Positions 10,295 through 38,095 of a stretch of DNA of 57,236 bases are shown here, in pieces (the stretch's first letter is position 1; each line of letters begins with the position of its first letter). Origin of the DNA: an uncultured Schlesneria sp. (GTDB taxonomy: Bacteria > Planctomycetota > Planctomycetia > Planctomycetales > Planctomycetaceae); NCBI GenBank assembly GCA_903858935.1, contig CAIOKO010000254.1, positions 1-57,236 on the forward strand, read 5' to 3'. The notes below the pieces were generated by a model. It searched no databases and was not told the origin of the DNA. It saw only the letters and a program-made list of their open reading frames with translations. Position numbers and translations under genes: made by a program.

Positions 10295-11620
10295 CCGTGA
10301 ACTCAATCGAACTCGGGTGAACTCGGGTAAACTTTTTAACGACAGAAAACGGGGTAGTGATCTCTGAAACCTTATTATTTACAAGGATCGGTCGAAGTCG
10401 CGCGAACTCAGGTGAACTTTTACATCAGATTTCGTGGTGCGTGATGACGGTAGAACGGAAGAGAACGAAGAGTCCGAGGGCGGGCCGAAACTGCAGAAAG
10501 TCGTCATGTGAAAGTCGTGAGTAGAGAAAACAAGAAGAGTCCGAAGGCTTACGCTGCTCGGCTCGCCTGGGAGCAGAGGTGGGATTCGAAGACGGTCGAA
10601 CTGCGACGAACTCGAACGAACTCGGGCGCCGTGAAAAAAGTGACGAAAACCCTATGAATTACGAGGAATGGTCGAAGTTGATCGAACTTGATCGAACTGT
10701 GACACCAAATTTTGCGGTGATTTAATTTCTGCAGGACAGAAGAGAAGATTTTTGAACAGAAGGACACGAAGTTAACGAAGGGAAGAGAATCACAGGAGAA
10801 CTTTGGTCGGTTGTGCGGGGTCGGGAGACCAATCGCACAACTGGGGCATCTGTCGAACTTGATCGAACTGCGACGAACTCGAACCAACTCGGGCGCCGTG
10901 AAAAAAGCGACAAAAACCCTATGAATTACGAGGAATGGTCGAACTTGATCGAACTGTGACACCAAATTTTGCGGTGATTTAATTTCTGCAGGACAGAAGA
11001 GAAGATTTTTGAACAGAAGGACACGAAGTTAACGAAGGGAAGAGAATCACAGGAGAACTTTGGTCGGTTGTGTGGGGTCGGGAGACCAATCACACAACTG
11101 GGGCGTCTGTCGAACTTGATCGAACTGCGACGAACTCGATCGAACTCGAACACTCCCAAAAACCGGGAAAACAATTGCCAAAAGCCCATTATTTACGAGG
11201 AATGGTCGAAGTCGATCGAACTTGATCAAACTGTGACACCCATTCTTGCCGGGAACTCGGTTTGAGCGAAATCCGAGAAAGAATGGTTGAACGGAAGGGT
11301 ACGGGGGCTGACGCACCCAGGCTCGCCTTGACTGTTTTTTTTCGTGTGTTTGGTGTGTTTCGTGGTTCAGATTCTTCTCGTGATTGGGTTGCGGGCGAAG
11401 CCCGCGCAAGGTTGCCTTTTGTTCAAAAGTTTTGCATTTTCGAATGCTTGCACAGGTTTTGTGGTGGGCCTCGAAGACTCGACCGCACTCTGCGGACACA
11501 CCAGATTGAACTTGGTCAACTTGACCAACTTTGCCAACTTGATCAAATTCAACTCTGAAAAAAAGCCTATGTAATACGGAACTTGGTCAACTTTACCAAC
11601 TTAGCCAATATTTTTTCGAT
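10295..11620. repeat. 267-bp intergenic tandem repeats with 9-10-bp CGAACT/CAACT arrays
   Basis: The segment ACGAGGAATGGTCGAA recurs at 10661, 10928 and 11195, exactly 267 bp apart, with a diverged copy at about 10381 and another near 11575. The first two full units are almost identical. Each unit holds one or two arrays in which CGAACT returns every 10 bp. Around 11506-11610 the motif is CAACT every 9-10 bp. Unit 1 has one more decamer than unit 2 in its first array and fewer in its second, so the 267-bp period is kept. The region also holds a C/G hairpin next to the 'GCGGGCGAAGCCCGC' palindrome (about 11390). No cas genes are nearby, and the spacing is wrong for CRISPR. Confidence 0.8.
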
Positions 11621-34965: not shown

Positions 34966-35262
34966 CTCGATCCTCACTCTTGAAAATTCCGTCCCACCAA
35001 AAGACGTATCATATTATGCCAGATGGGAGCAGACACGCAAAAAACGGAGAACCTCTTCGTTTTCATTCAGCATCGATAAAAATCAAAGCGAAACAGCCCG
35101 GCGGATCGGCTTGCGCCAGCCCGTCGAACTGTGTTTTGAAGGCCATTCGGCTCGTCAATTCCAGCGTCACTTCTTCAATCTCGGCGATGTAGCGACCTGT
35201 GTCTCTGGTCAGAAACAAAAAAAATCACGTCGGACGCGGAGTCACTGAAGCCGCCGACTTTC
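34966..35262. other. Gap before tRNA array, no gene seen
   Basis: Only low-quality frames occur. One frame (34980-35248, plus) is Lys/Arg/Ser-rich and lacks a ribosome site. It precedes the decayed tRNA-like segment starting near 35265. Confidence 0.35.
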
Positions 35263-35264
35263 AG

Positions 35265-35345
35265 GAAGTCGCAACGGCCTGGAATCAAACTCACTGGATG
35301 CGGCTTTCAGACCACCGCTGCACTGCGTGACTCGAACGTGTTTAG
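35265..35345 (-). other. Decayed tRNA-like fragment
   Basis: On the minus strand a D-arm-like GTGCAGCGG and a degraded T-arm TTTGATTCC are seen, and the outer ends pair only in part (GTCACGC against GTTGCGAC). No anticodon stem of five pairs forms. It looks like the last member of the tRNA array and is probably non-functional. Confidence 0.3.
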
Positions 35346-35467
35346 GCTACAGGACCGAATCAAGTCAAGAACGAAGCTCTGGATATTGAACCCAAATGCG
35401 AGATGTTCCCACCGACTTTTTAAAGAAAGGTTCCTCATCCAACTGGATGACTTACATAAACGGTAAA

Positions 35468-35541
35468 CTGCGGGAGTTGGAATCGAACCAACGCCTCCGG
35501 GTTCAGGGCCCGGCATCACTACCAGCAGCAACTATCCCGCA
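35468..35541 (-). tRNA. tRNA-Gln (CTG) with C33
   Basis: Acceptor TGCGGGA/TCCCGCA, T8 A9, D-arm with weak pairs (GTTG/TGAT), anticodon stem CCGGG/CCCGG with loop CCCTGAA (anticodon CTG), T-stem GTTGG/CCAAC with TTCGATT, discriminator G. The loop has C at position 33, where almost all tRNAs have U. It aligns base for base with the tRNA-Gln(TTG) at 35587. Confidence 0.75.
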
Positions 35542-35586
35542 ACGATTGTGGATTGAATGAAACTTCCTTTCTTGAAAAATCATGAA

Positions 35587-35661
35587 ATGCGGGGGCAGGA
35601 ATCGAACCTGCGGACTCGTGGGTCAAAGCCACGGATTTCTACCAGCAGAAACTACCCCGCA
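35587..35661 (-). tRNA. tRNA-Gln (TTG)
   Basis: Acceptor TGCGGGG/CCCCGCA, T8 A9, D-stem GTTT/AAAT, anticodon stem CGTGG/CCACG with loop CTTTGAC (TTG, normal U33), T-stem GCAGG/CCTGC with TTCGATT, discriminator T. It is a paralogue of the neighbour at 35468. Confidence 0.85.
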
Positions 35662-35667
35662 AAGCGA

Positions 35668-35740
35668 GAAGGAAGAGGGCGACTTGAGCCCGCATTGCCG
35701 CCTTATGGGCGCATGTTTTCGCCGCTAGACTACGTGTGAG
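35668..35740 (-). pseudogene. Decayed tRNA, Met/Ile2-like (CAT)
   Basis: On the minus strand TAGTCTAGCGGC gives a D-arm, CCCATAA gives a loop with CAT anticodon and C33, and GCTCAAGT gives a T-loop in which the first T is now C. The acceptor arms do not pair at all and the anticodon stem has two mismatches. Its ATAAGGCGGCA segment matches the Ile(GAT) tRNA at 36601, so they share origin. Confidence 0.5.
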
Positions 35741-35770
35741 ATCAAATTAAAGAATGCAGGATGACCACAC

Positions 35771-35983
35771 ATGTGGCTAATGATTAATTTCATTTCGACT
35801 GGTGCTTTCCTAATCGTGTTGATAGTGATCGAAGTTGTCCGTTCAATCGTTCATCGGCATCGCGAAAAGCGGTATGGAATCGGTGGTGGAACTCAGGATA
35901 TTGCCATGTGGGGGTCGCTGCTGGCGTGCCTGCTGCTCGTTCTTGGTGCCATTTCCAGTGTTCTCTGTTGGTTTGGGTTTTGA
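35771..35983 (+). CDS. Possible small membrane protein
   Basis: This 70-residue frame starts at an ATG with AGGA eight bases upstream. It has two hydrophobic segments, FISTGAFLIVLIVIEVV and WGSLLACLLLVLGAISSVL, separated by a basic loop HRHREKRYG. That layout is typical of small two-helix membrane proteins. It lies inside the tRNA array, on the opposite strand. No family is recognised, and chance cannot be excluded. Confidence 0.4.
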   Translation: MWLMINFISTGAFLIVLIVIEVVRSIVHRHREKRYGIGGGTQDIAMWGSLLACLLLVLGAISSVLCWFGF

Positions 35984-36074
35984 ATTGATCCCATACGCAA
36001 TGGAGCCGTTACTTGCTCAGGTAATCATGGAGTGTGCGGCCACCTACTAATTTGATCCAGTCTTCATCTTTCAA

Positions 36075-36146
36075 TAGGCTTGGGCGAAGTTGAACCTCCA
36101 TCACGATCTTATAAGGAGCCTGCTCTTACCGTTGAGCGACAGACCA
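36075..36146 (-). pseudogene. Degenerate tRNA-Ile (TAT)-like
   Basis: The D-arm GCTC/GAGC is intact, with D-loop AACGGTAA. The loop CTTATAA gives anticodon TAT with normal U33. The acceptor pairs only 5 of 7, the anticodon stem 3 of 5 and the T-stem 4 of 5. It may be a decaying or fast-evolving tRNA-Ile for AUA codons. Confidence 0.5.
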
Positions 36147-36314
36147 GCAGCCGATAGCGTGAGGGTCGTAGTGAGTGACTAGAAAACGGACACTGGTGGT
36201 TCGCCAGAAGCTTCCGCTCCATGATCCCAAGGAACTTTGACGACACTTACAACGTCACGTTCCTCAAGACGGGAAAAGAACGGAAATTCTCTCCGTCTAA
36301 TTTCTCCGATCTAC

Positions 36315-36341
36315 TCTCACTGCGGCGAAGCCGCAGTGAGG
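36315..36341 (-). terminator. UUCG-capped hairpin after tRNA-Lys
   Basis: Read on the minus strand, CTCACTGCGG pairs with CCGCAGTGAG around CTTCGC, a very stable C(UUCG)G-type loop, overlapping the tRNA 3' end. No strong U tract follows, so it is more likely a processing or protective stem than a plain terminator. Confidence 0.5.
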
Positions 36342-36408
36342 TCGTGGGGATTCGAACCCCCGTCGGGCAGATTAAAAATCTGCTGTGCTGCCGTTACACC
36401 ACGACCCC
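36337..36408 (-). tRNA. tRNA-Lys (TTT)
   Basis: Acceptor GGGGTCG/CGACCTC (one G-T), T8 G9, D-stem GTGT/GCAC, anticodon stem GCAGA/TCTGC with loop TTTTTAA (TTT), T-arm GGGGG TTCGAAT CCCCA with a G-A mismatch at the outer pair, discriminator A. It is directly followed by a stem closed by a UUCG loop. Confidence 0.88.
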
Positions 36409-36552
36409 CTATGAGGACGTGGCTCCGTTTGTCTGCGTCTTCTTGTTCCATGGCTTTCTCCTTTTCGAATCGCTCGAAATTGTCGGTTACTATTTGAATC
36501 AACGTCGTCAAGCCACATGTTTCAGCAGCAGCGGCGGCTTTCGTCTGCTGCT

Positions 36553-36600
36553 GAAAAAAAATTGCGAGGAGACTGGAACCCTCCTCTACAAGGCTGACAA
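36553..36600 (-). terminator. tRNA 3'-half remnant acting as terminator-like hairpin
   Basis: Immediately downstream of tRNA-Ile(GAT) the minus strand reads a tRNA-Thr-like 3' half (GCCTTGTAGAGGAGGG). The T-arm then forms the stem GAGGAG/CTCCTC with a GTTCCAGT-type loop, followed by GCAA and eight Ts. The remnant therefore has the shape of an intrinsic terminator. Confidence 0.55.
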
Positions 36601-36671
36601 TCGCTTGGAGTGGAGTTGAACCACTGCTGCCGCCTTATCAGAACGACGTGCTTCCGTTACACCACCAAGCG
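36601..36671 (-). tRNA. tRNA-Ile (GAT)
   Basis: Acceptor CGCTTGG/CCAAGCG is perfect, with T8 G9 and D-stem GTGT/GCAC. The anticodon stem TCGTT/GGCGG holds three G-T pairs and the loop CTGATAA (GAT) has normal U33. The T-stem is AGTGG/CCACT with TTCAACT; discriminator A. The weak anticodon stem is unusual. Confidence 0.8.
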
Positions 36672-36674
36672 GAG

Positions 36675-36746
36675 TCGGGATGGTCAGAATCGAACTGACT
36701 TTCTCGTGTGCCCAAGACACGCGGGCAACCGGTGCCCCTCACCCCG
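36675..36746 (-). tRNA. tRNA-Pro (TGG)
   Basis: Acceptor CGGGGTG/CATCCCG (one G-T), position 8 is A rather than U, D-stem GGGC/GCCC, anticodon stem CGTGT/ACACG with loop CTTGGGC (TGG), T-stem GTCAG/CTGAC with TTCGATT, discriminator A. It starts 3 bp upstream of tRNA-Ile(GAT), so the two form one transcript. Confidence 0.85.
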
Positions 36747-36819
36747 AATGTGTTATTACTGGACCATCAACGACGTCGCCGCCTAAATGCGAGCCTAGTC
36801 CGTTCGCTGATGCTTAAAG

Positions 36820-36890
36820 CGTTTTGTTTTTGACACGGTTTTAAGTTCATTGTCTTTGACGCTGTCTTAAAATCTTTGTCTTGGACAAAA
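36820..36890. repeat. 26-bp direct repeats upstream of the tRNA array
   Basis: TTTTTGACACGGTTTTAAG, TCTTTGACGCTGTCTTAAA and a shorter TCTTGGAC start about 26 bp apart (36827, 36853, 36879). They lie between the terminator at 36886 and the first tRNA, where an array promoter would be. Confidence 0.4.
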
Positions 36891-36922
36891 GAAAAACCCG
36901 GTGTCATTTGTGTGACACCGGG
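36886..36922 (-). terminator. Strong intrinsic terminator (minus strand)
   Basis: A perfect 10-bp stem CCCGGTGTCA/TGACACCGGG with a 6-base loop is followed on the minus strand by TTTTTCTTTT. It ends a minus-strand transcript coming from the right and isolates the tRNA array. Confidence 0.8.
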
Positions 36923-37528
36923 CTTATAAAAGCTTGGGGAGGCTGAAAGCCGATGTCACGTGCGCGGGGGATACGGGGGTTGCGCGCATTGCAAATCTGC
37001 GTTCCCCGGATACTGACAGCGCAACGTCTGGATTACGGATAACAGTCGGACAATGTCCGTCTGAATCGGGGGACGCACGAGTTGTACCGTGACGACGCTC
37101 GCCGGTGCCGTAAACCATTTGGTATCGCTCTGCCTGTAATCGGATATCGACTGTGAAAACATCATGAACCGCGAAGCCTTTGAGGTTGATTCTTCCTGAA
37201 ACGTGTGGGGTCTTCGACGATGTGCTTTATCGCCGTTACGCATTTGACGCCCGAGTTCAGAAAAAGGTTCACGGGAAAACTCTAATAATTGCGAAGACTT
37301 TCTTGGCAAGTCCACGGGATAGAAATCGAGATTTCATGCGAACTTCGAAACGTCAAATTCAAAACCTGCAATTCATATCACCACCGTTTGATGCAGGCAT
37401 TTTTTTTTGCAATTCGTGACGCCTGACCGAGCCATGTCAGATAGAATTCCGAAAGTTCTGCACACAATTGCTTATGCCAGCTGAAAGCCATCAACACGAA
37501 GGCTGAAGGCCTCATTTAGTTACCGTAT
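36923..37528. other. Stretch with a possible short minus-strand gene
   Basis: The terminator at 36886 implies a minus-strand transcript here. The best frame ends at 36956 and includes FTAPASVVTVQLVRPPIQTD and IVRLLSVIQTLRCQYPG, with GC-rich third positions. Its start is unclear (37315 or an ATG near 37163). A second frame (GFAVHDVFTVDIRLQAERYQ) also reads protein-like upstream, so a frameshifted small gene is possible. No family was recognised. Confidence 0.3.
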
Positions 37529-38095
37529 TCAAAGAGCGGATTCTTCGATCGGCGCGACGCGGTACATGGTGCGTGTGATTCGAAAACCAAGGCTGCGATA
37601 AAGTTCCACTGCGGTCACGTTTGAGGCAGTCACTTCGAGAACAACTCGCTTCACTCGGGCACTCAAAAATCCTTCCAGCGATTTCATGACGAGCGCGCGA
37701 CCCAACCCTAATGCTCGATGTTCTGGAACGACTCCAATGTTCTGAATAGATCCCGATTGATCAGCAACACCAATCCCTTGAATTGTTCCGCAATCCTGGG
37801 GAAGCTCCCCTTGTCCGACCCGGCAGACAAGCCATGTTGCAGGACCGAGAAAAGTCTCCTGGCTGGCGATGTCGGACATCAGTCTCAGGCAGCCATAGTA
37901 TTCCCCAAGACAGGAAAACACTTCGGCATCCAGTTCGTCGCGGAAACTCCGGTATTTGGTCAGCGCATGACGTTCGATATCCGACTCATTCCATTCGCGC
38001 CAAATGTAACCTTCAGGCAGTACGGCGGACGCAACCGGCGTTTCGTCCAGTCGGATCTCCATTCGATACCGTTTGAAAAACTGCTGTTCCGTCAT
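37529..38095 (-). CDS. GNAT-family N-acetyltransferase
   Basis: This 188-residue protein has the GNAT core at residues 95-185: IQGIGVADQSGSIQNIGVVP, then the acetyl-CoA loop EHRALGLGRALV (motif A, Q/RxxGxG/A-like), the ASNVTAVELYRSLGF motif B, and MYRV at the end. It would transfer acetyl groups from acetyl-CoA; the target is unknown. ATG 38095 is preferred over the TTG frame start at 38107. It appears as a single gene facing left. Confidence 0.85.
   Translation of the reverse strand: MTEQQFFKRYRMEIRLDETPVASAVLPEGYIWREWNESDIERHALTKYRSFRDELDAEVFSCLGEYYGCLRLMSDIASQETFLGPATWLVCRVGQGELPQDCGTIQGIGVADQSGSIQNIGVVPEHRALGLGRALVMKSLEGFLSARVKRVVLEVTASNVTAVELYRSLGFRITRTMYRVAPIEESAL

Follow-up and report, generated by a model that had tools for sequence, protein, structure and literature searches.

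A shrunken array of backup tRNA genes in a Schlesneria genome, preceded by a putative attenuator leader shared among planctomycetes

In the trp and his attenuators, a leader open reading frame (ORF) is coupled to a choice between an antiterminator and a terminator, with the stop codon placed such that a ribosome which finishes the leader favours termination. Big arrays of spare tRNA genes are known in several bacteria, and where roughly 20 tRNA genes or more are densely packed in a run, one speaks of a tRNA array unit. In the trn operon of Anabaena sp. PCC 7120, as passages of PMC10272220 describe it, 26 spare tRNAs stand beside the housekeeping set, silent until they are induced by translation-blocking antibiotics, and genes for an HNH nuclease, the RtcB RNA ligase, a slipin and a GNAT protein are raised in a mutant of trcR, the product of which is a repressor. 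This stress-induced operon is the closest known system to the one treated here. The array units of mycobacteria, their phages and plasmids hold some 30 densely packed tRNAs, HNH genes being their most widespread companions, and an anti-defence role is proposed for them in parts of PMC5966550 and PMC12803027, while phage tRNAs with altered anticodon loops are proposed, in part of PMC10264068, to evade host anticodon nucleases. Here we describe a tRNA cluster at positions 35,265 to 36,746, minus strand, of a 57,236-nucleotide stretch of contig CAIOKO010000254.1 (assembly GCA_903858935.1, an uncultured Schlesneria sp.), the whole of which we call the window. In our judgement, the cluster is probably a shrunken, partly decayed member of a planctomycete family of backup tRNA arrays under ribosome-mediated transcription attenuation, which would be turned on when translation of a leader ORF fails.

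The leader of the array, also on the minus strand, has an element resembling promoters of the extracytoplasmic function (ECF) type (37243..37270), made up of GAACCT (37270-37265), a 17-nt spacer and TCAAA (37247-37243), the second block being worn. It is followed by a leader ORF of 69 codons plus stop (36956..37165, MMFSQ...YPPRT), which is homologous to leader ORFs before other arrays; a longer, 119-codon ORF in the same place (36956-37315) was rejected as a protein gene because it has no Pfam match and because the alignment puts the conserved start at 69 codons from the stop. The stop itself, TGA (36958-36956), lies within the 5' arm of a putative antiterminator, GTGACATCGG (36950..36959), which can pair with positions 36912-36921. 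Those positions are at the same time the 5' arm, CCGGTGTCAC (36921-36912), of a hairpin followed by a U-tract (36894..36925), similar to a rho-independent terminator and situated 148 nt before the first tRNA. We picture the working of such a leader as follows. Namely, the array would be transcribed from the ECF-like promoter through the leader with its small ORF, and a ribosome completing that ORF would sit on the stop and cover the antiterminator 5' arm, whereupon the terminator would form and the tRNAs would stay silent. A ribosome stalled earlier, or missing altogether (upon tRNA depletion or cleavage, in the presence of antibiotics, or after failed initiation), would leave the arm free to pair with the 5' arm of the terminator, and, the antiterminator having formed, transcription would carry on through the tRNAs together with any genes interspersed with them. 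The cell would thereby gain a pool of replacement tRNAs, part of them bearing anticodon loops altered at position 33, along with translation and RNA-repair proteins at some loci. That the leader switches, what triggers it and what the tRNAs do are points that we infer from this anatomy.

What can be read directly from the sequences are the arrays, the leader, its two mutually exclusive pairings, the frame and constraint of the ORF, the promoter motif, the linkage of leader and tRNAs, the genes embedded in arrays and the pattern of C at position 33 (C33). A common leader precedes the first tRNA in 11 of 12 regions compared. The preliminary description had seen in the strong terminator a boundary of the array; the hairpin with its T-run is indeed there (36925-36894), but it stands 5' of the first tRNA and inside the leader, as in 11 of the 12 aligned array starts, and we have therefore discarded it as a boundary. 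The window leader matches a covariance model of the leader at 36889-36971 with 97.3 bits, the window sequence being itself included in the model, and an Rfam search of the leader returned no gathering-level match. When three leaders were folded, pieces of 53-57 nt adopted the antiterminator (-20 to -20.5 kcal/mol), and the full pieces of 74-78 nt adopted the terminator (-26.3, -28.1 and -31.5 kcal/mol). Across 46 aligned leaders, the antiterminator pairing holds in 96% of cells, as opposed to 21-41% if it is slid by 1-3 columns, and the leader TGA is located inside the antiterminator arm in every one of the 46. In 56 of 62 leaders, at most 5 shuffles out of 200 match the duplex. In a model-fitted alignment of the 46, the terminator helix pairs in 98.6% of cells, with no covariation; two small flanking helices contain five pairs that have changed on both sides. 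Both sequence and fold place a terminator between the leader ORF and the first gene, and complementarity provides an alternative antiterminator pairing that excludes it.

The leader is, moreover, closely linked to tRNA genes. A first covariance model, R1, built from eleven leaders and run on 170 family genomes, matched 70 of them at E <= 0.001, many weakly. Followed up were the 40 non-seed matches of at least 40.7 bits among the matches listed, lower ones being taken only if re-found by a second model, R2. At 37 of these 40 loci tRNAs lie downstream, the exceptions being L179 and L183, where the contig ends 47 and 149 nt past the leader, and L168, where the leader is degenerate. Model R2, built from 46 leaders and applied at E <= 1e-6, found matches in 40 genomes out of 170 from the order; in a draw of 392 genomes from the phylum it matched 9, of which five belong to two further families. 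The R2 searches gave 14 new matches, with tRNAs downstream at all 13 that were inspected and the remaining one (G120) at a contig edge. Reading from strong leader matches towards tRNAs, and among the inspected loci, 50 of 53 non-seed leader loci thus carry downstream tRNA genes, the first of them 7-245 nt (median 50) past the end of the model. At 20 of the 50, the first tRNA called by ARAGORN is within 38 nt of the model end, and in G008 an Ile tRNA starts 12 nt past the hairpin, so that at many loci a promoter of the array's own would hardly fit. When 84,980 species genomes were scanned with an exact pattern, 34 matches came up, 33 of them in records titled as planctomycetes. Five of the 34 were scanned for tRNAs: these follow the leader in L191, L196 and L217, the match of L206 is at a contig end, and the L201 contig (Chitinivibrionales) has the pattern with no tRNAs nearby, probably by chance. 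The genome to which the window belongs has another leader, on contig C61, which is followed by a lone auxiliary His-GTG tRNA and an HNH gene, and at a second locus of G001 (L165) the leader precedes Ser-GGA and then EF-Tu.

As for transcription, the motif GAAC-N17-19-RTCT, which resembles ECF-sigma promoters, occurs in 49 of the 62 leaders at a distance of 90-350 nt ahead of the stop, compared with 38 of 1253 downstream control windows (3%). An earlier, strict form of the pattern gave 34 of 62 leaders versus 18 of 715 control windows, and a form with N20-22 spacing gave 1 of 62. A sigma-70 promoter was sought in 35000-37600 of the window and none was found. As for translation, the leader ORF set comprises 62 of 64 leaders (11 seeds and 53 others), L185 and L245 lacking the TGAC landmark. 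The frame that ends at the leader stop is open for at least 50 codons in 56 of the 62, and the other two frames in 14 and 22. The pooled dN/dS is 0.47, from 26 overlapping, non-independent pairs with the last five codons dropped; single pairs give 0.19-1.09, with one at 4.65 on very few synonymous changes, and the window and two sister genomes (G011 and G012) give 0.63-0.78 among themselves. Measured from the farthest ATG within 75 codons, the leaders mostly range from 16 codons (MECISQTNSHPYRLRQ, with 13 different amino acids) to 74.

The arrays behind these leaders can be far larger than the one in the window. Of 15 genomes in the genus, own genome included, 11 were matched in a DNA search, in part through a 72-bp repeat instead of the tRNAs. 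Relatives in the genus have up to 30 tRNAs in a single run, in an order that agrees with that of the window; in L067, for instance, it reads Ile-GAT, Lys-TTT, Ile-TAT, ... Gln-TTG, Gln-CTG, Ser-TGA. The largest ARAGORN runs in a wider sample contain 43 tRNAs (L150), 39 (L156 and L157) and 37 (L151 and L189), and large arrays bearing the leader occur in at least three families. Such arrays are dense runs of at least 20 tRNAs, and the window, with five intact genes and remnants, falls short of that size. The arrays of G011 and G012 adjoin the same GNAT and FliO/P-Q-R genes as the window array, which makes it syntenic in three species, and those neighbours in the window that have Pfam matches are ordinary metabolic and flagellar genes.

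Within the window, tRNAs were called by ARAGORN and scored with the Rfam tRNA model at a cut-off of 29 bits. All five foldable minus-strand tRNAs of the preliminary description were recovered, and their scores of 45.5-55.5 bits mean that they are not chance. They are tRNA-Pro (TGG; 36674..36746; 48.4 bits; 99% identity to G012 and G011), which is the first of the array, tRNA-Ile (GAT; 36601..36671; 54.3 bits; 92% to G012 and 96% to G011), tRNA-Lys (TTT; 36336..36408; 55.5 bits; 96% to both), tRNA-Gln (TTG; 35587..35661; 48.9 bits; 100% to G012 across 75 nt) and tRNA-Gln (CTG; 35467..35542; 45.5 bits; loop CCCTGAA), the last aligning poorly in the sisters (43% and 70%). Decayed copies had been described too, and the Ile-TAT and CAT-like ones are there, but the supposed 3' half of a tRNA-Thr and the last fragment are better read as Ser-TGA and Cys-GCA. 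In particular, tRNA-Ile (TAT; 36075..36146), with 87% BLAST identity to the relatives' array tRNA, reaches 27.3 bits, below the cut-off, and scores 62.0 in G012 and 53.5 in G011, which together with the far fuller arrays of relatives bears out the claim of degrading members. The remaining pieces, all on the minus strand, are a CAT remnant (~35665..35740), a Ser-TGA remnant (35388..35453; 84% BLAST identity to L070), and remnants of Lys-CTT (35991..36058; 75% to L077) and Cys-GCA (35281..35332; 79% to L152), the latter two each resting on one BLAST match with E ~1e-5. The CAT-like piece has no BLAST match among the relatives' array tRNAs.

That the set is auxiliary, as had been proposed, agrees with the fact that all five anticodons (Gln-TTG, Gln-CTG, Lys-TTT, Ile-GAT and Pro-TGG) recur elsewhere in the genome, so that the array is redundant and its members are not the sole copies for their codons. 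The comparison set consists of 45 distinct tRNA sequences from 150 of 342 candidates scored, a list that may be incomplete and that includes the lone auxiliary His-GTG. The four survivors that align in both sisters retain 92-100% identity, compared with 79% and 71% for the spacers and 86% and 82% for Ile-TAT, and selection therefore seems to be still acting on those four tRNAs. The window copy is thus an array shrunk through decay.

Several other features of the locus may be recorded here. The 72-bp repeat forms a hairpin and lies within the array at 36198-36269; 46 further copies were found elsewhere in the genome among the matches listed, some as neighbouring pairs, and there are many in G008, G011 and G012. 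It resembles a REP or MITE element. Opposite the array, on the plus strand, is a small ORF of 70 codons (35771-35983), similar to a two-span membrane protein, in a stretch that aligns well with G011 and G012. Another small ORF (MEQEDADKRSHVLI...), on the minus strand at 36451, follows an AAGGAG motif and runs into tRNA-Lys (TTT), its start region being similar in G011 and G012. At 10367-11253 of the window there are direct repeats of 73-213 nt, spaced by approximately 257-534 nt, and a similar sequence is found beside the tRNA array of G008 (L075 1846-2144).

C33 had been noted in two members of the array, which was described as degrading. The observation itself was confirmed, both for Gln-CTG, with its loop CCCTGAA, and for the CAT-like remnant, whose loop cc[CAT]aa is also that of the array Met-CAT in L150 and L154. 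A reading of C33 as decay was not borne out. Namely, of 870 array tRNAs in total, 866 have a three-base anticodon call, and 123 of these carry C33, compared with none of the 45 tRNAs from the rest of the window genome. The C33 tRNAs are found chiefly among Leu-GAG (17 of 19), Val-GAC (13 of 14), Glu-CTC (12 of 15), Thr-CGT (16 of 28) and Gly-GCC (13 of 29), with mostly well-paired stems and in several genera, and because it is conserved in such defined isoacceptors we reject it as a mark of decay. Among array Gln-CTG tRNAs it occurs in 2 of 20, the window copy and that of L154. Conserved in defined isoacceptors, C33 would predict resistance to anticodon nucleases or altered decoding.

Protein genes accompany the tRNAs at a number of loci. 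Within or just after the arrays of 66 locus sequences, same-strand homologues were found of HNH (22), EF-Tu (4), RNA-ligase-like (4, from two query sequences), cREC, for cyclic-phosphate processing (2), Ro60 (5) and SPFH (9) proteins. The HNH gene is positioned between His-GTG and Trp-CCA at 13 of the 22 HNH loci, and the Ro60 and SPFH genes lie 0.3-1.8 kb past the last detected tRNA. Counting matches at E <= 1e-5, the large-array genomes G001 and G116 reach 71 and 70 tRNA matches, and G002, G003, G004, G017 and G019, all of more than 90% completeness and with no strong leader, have 39-47; G006, an incomplete genome with a degenerate leader, has 23. One can go further and ask whether these arrays constitute silenced emergency-translation islands, in which a near-complete second tRNA set, part of it with nuclease-resistant C33 anticodon loops, would stand behind an attenuator in the company of genes for EF-Tu, RNA-ligase-like, cyclic-phosphate-processing, Ro60 and HNH proteins, and the leader ORF would report a general collapse of the tRNA pool and not the shortage of one amino acid's tRNA. 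We regard this extension as a genuine possibility, albeit one on which we would not yet wager. If true, the cell would possess in such an island a switch, read by ribosomes, that renews its tRNAs once they are damaged, for instance by an anticodon nuclease. On the proteins themselves, it may be added that the nuclease part of the array HNH protein (L150 5012-5626 and homologues) resembles the HNH of IscB and Cas9, below curated cut-offs. A further family of ~230-270 residues (L157 5421-6113, L161, L162, L074, L235, L239 and L241, with 30-70% identity to the L157 copy) is encoded inside arrays before His-GTG, or before Trp-CCA in L161; its L157 copy has no Pfam match.

That said, a number of observations weigh against attenuation, or against parts of it. 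One of the 12 arrays, L078, has no leader; in 6 of 62 leaders the antiterminator duplex does not clearly outdo its shuffles; and the antiterminator, with nearly invariant arms, shows no covariation and does not score above column-shuffled controls, for which reason a protein-binding site is another way to read the block. As to the promoter pattern, it was fitted to the very sequences on which it was scored, and its strict form is absent from 13 of 62 leaders, including those of the window and its two sisters, the window copy having no RTCT. The end of the window peptide (PPRT) is worn as well, and with the second promoter block and the peptide end in this condition the window's own leader copy may no longer switch. 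HNH was undetected at 17 of 34 loci with at least 10 tRNAs, some of them cut by contig ends, the RNA-ligase match of L067 is at 19.1 bits, below the Pfam cut-off, and a PDB search with both ligase-like proteins found no ligase. Finally, G014, which has a leader and six tRNAs, totals 47 tRNA matches, no more than a leaderless genome. Other such points would suit an alternative in which the leader ORF codes for a small functional protein and has its own terminator, the array being transcribed independently of it, or else through leaky readthrough that is constitutive, and nothing being switched. The pooled dN/dS fits a functional small protein too, the N-terminus is conserved in Schlesneria leaders, many of these are 53-74 residues long, which is a great deal for a pure sensor, the missing covariation is in keeping with it, and at 12 of 50 loci over 100 nt separate the leader from the first tRNA detected, with 148 nt in the window, leaving room for another promoter. 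Against this alternative, the TGA falls within the antiterminator arm in all 46 aligned leaders, some leaders are just 16 or 33 codons long from the farthest ATG, and tRNAs follow at 50 of 53 loci, within 38 nt at 20 of the 50. On balance, we consider this alternative unlikely.

The end of the leader peptide suggests a different alternative, namely that the leader is a drug or arrest-peptide sensor, the Leu-Arg-x-stop end of which stalls ribosomes on one specific ligand and not upon general translation failure. R-x-R motifs are macrolide-arrest motifs. The ORF ends in Leu-Arg-x in 51 of 62 leaders, with five of these using the synonymous codons CTC AGG where most have CTG CGC, and RLR is present in 10 of 62. 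Pro-Leu-Arg-x is commoner (31 of 62), though, and, what is more, a ribosome arrested on the stop codon or beside it would be expected to mask the antiterminator arm, so that the array stayed off, which is the wrong sign for induction; we hold such a sensor to be improbable.

Regarding a phage or plasmid origin, a DNA match was sought in 50,697 phage and 72,556 plasmid records and the exact leader pattern in a viral contig collection, in each case with no match, and no integrase was found among 20 flank proteins tested at other arrays (94 flank ORFs being listed), although one of the 20 resembles a restriction methylase. Given these results and the synteny in three species, the origin suggested in the preliminary description finds no support. 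The least probable account of all is that of plain decay, in which a phage- or plasmid-borne cluster was captured by the chromosome and is degrading without function: several members, the leader promoter and the peptide end are decayed or worn in the window, as it would have them, but four tRNAs have stayed near-identical to the sisters' amid diverged spacers, the array is syntenic in three species and matches no phage, plasmid or viral contig, and large arrays with the leader are present in three families or more.

If ribosome-mediated attenuation is indeed at work, a leader that can be read from sequence makes the timing of tRNA production from such arrays directly testable and connects them with failing translation and damaged RNA, and model R2 can serve as a marker for locating further islands. 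Among the titles listed in open-licence PubMed Central searches, none dealt with a leader-based switch or attenuator before a tRNA array or with planctomycete tRNA arrays. Compared with the attenuators of trp and his type (on which see PMC1183508), the planctomycete leader shares the leader ORF, the choice between antiterminator and terminator and the placement of the stop; unlike them, it precedes a tRNA operon and has no run of one amino acid's codons. The phage tRNAs with altered loops, as treated in part of PMC10264068, resemble the array tRNAs as replacement tRNAs changed in the anticodon loop; the planctomycete arrays differ in belonging to genomes of cells and in conserving C33 in certain isoacceptors, for which nuclease resistance would be a prediction. 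Mycobacterial array units are likewise dense in tRNAs and accompanied by HNH genes (parts of PMC5966550), and units of this type are located on plasmids and phages as well as chromosomes (parts of PMC5966550 and PMC12803027). Neither main text has the words 'leader' or 'Planctomyc', that of PMC5966550 does not have 'terminator', and that of PMC12803027 does not have 'attenuat'. Relatives of the HNH protein matched 101 plasmid records, of which 10 regions were inspected; two adjoin tRNA runs, both in filamentous cyanobacteria, a Nostoc and a Tolypothrix plasmid having a related HNH gene directly before a run of 21 tRNAs. The Anabaena trn operon, going by the passages of PMC10272220, has HNH, ligase-like (of a different ligase family), SPFH and GNAT genes in common with the planctomycete arrays. 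Its regulation is different, the promoter-binding repressor TrcR, with its 8-bp site, taking the place of the ORF-terminator leader and the ECF-like promoter, and the main text of PMC10272220 does not contain 'leader', 'attenuat' or 'terminator'. The proposed attenuator would, by this analogy, give the planctomycete arrays the behaviour that Anabaena trn obtains from its repressor, which suggests that these planctomycetes would hold an emergency translation kit off until protein synthesis breaks down.

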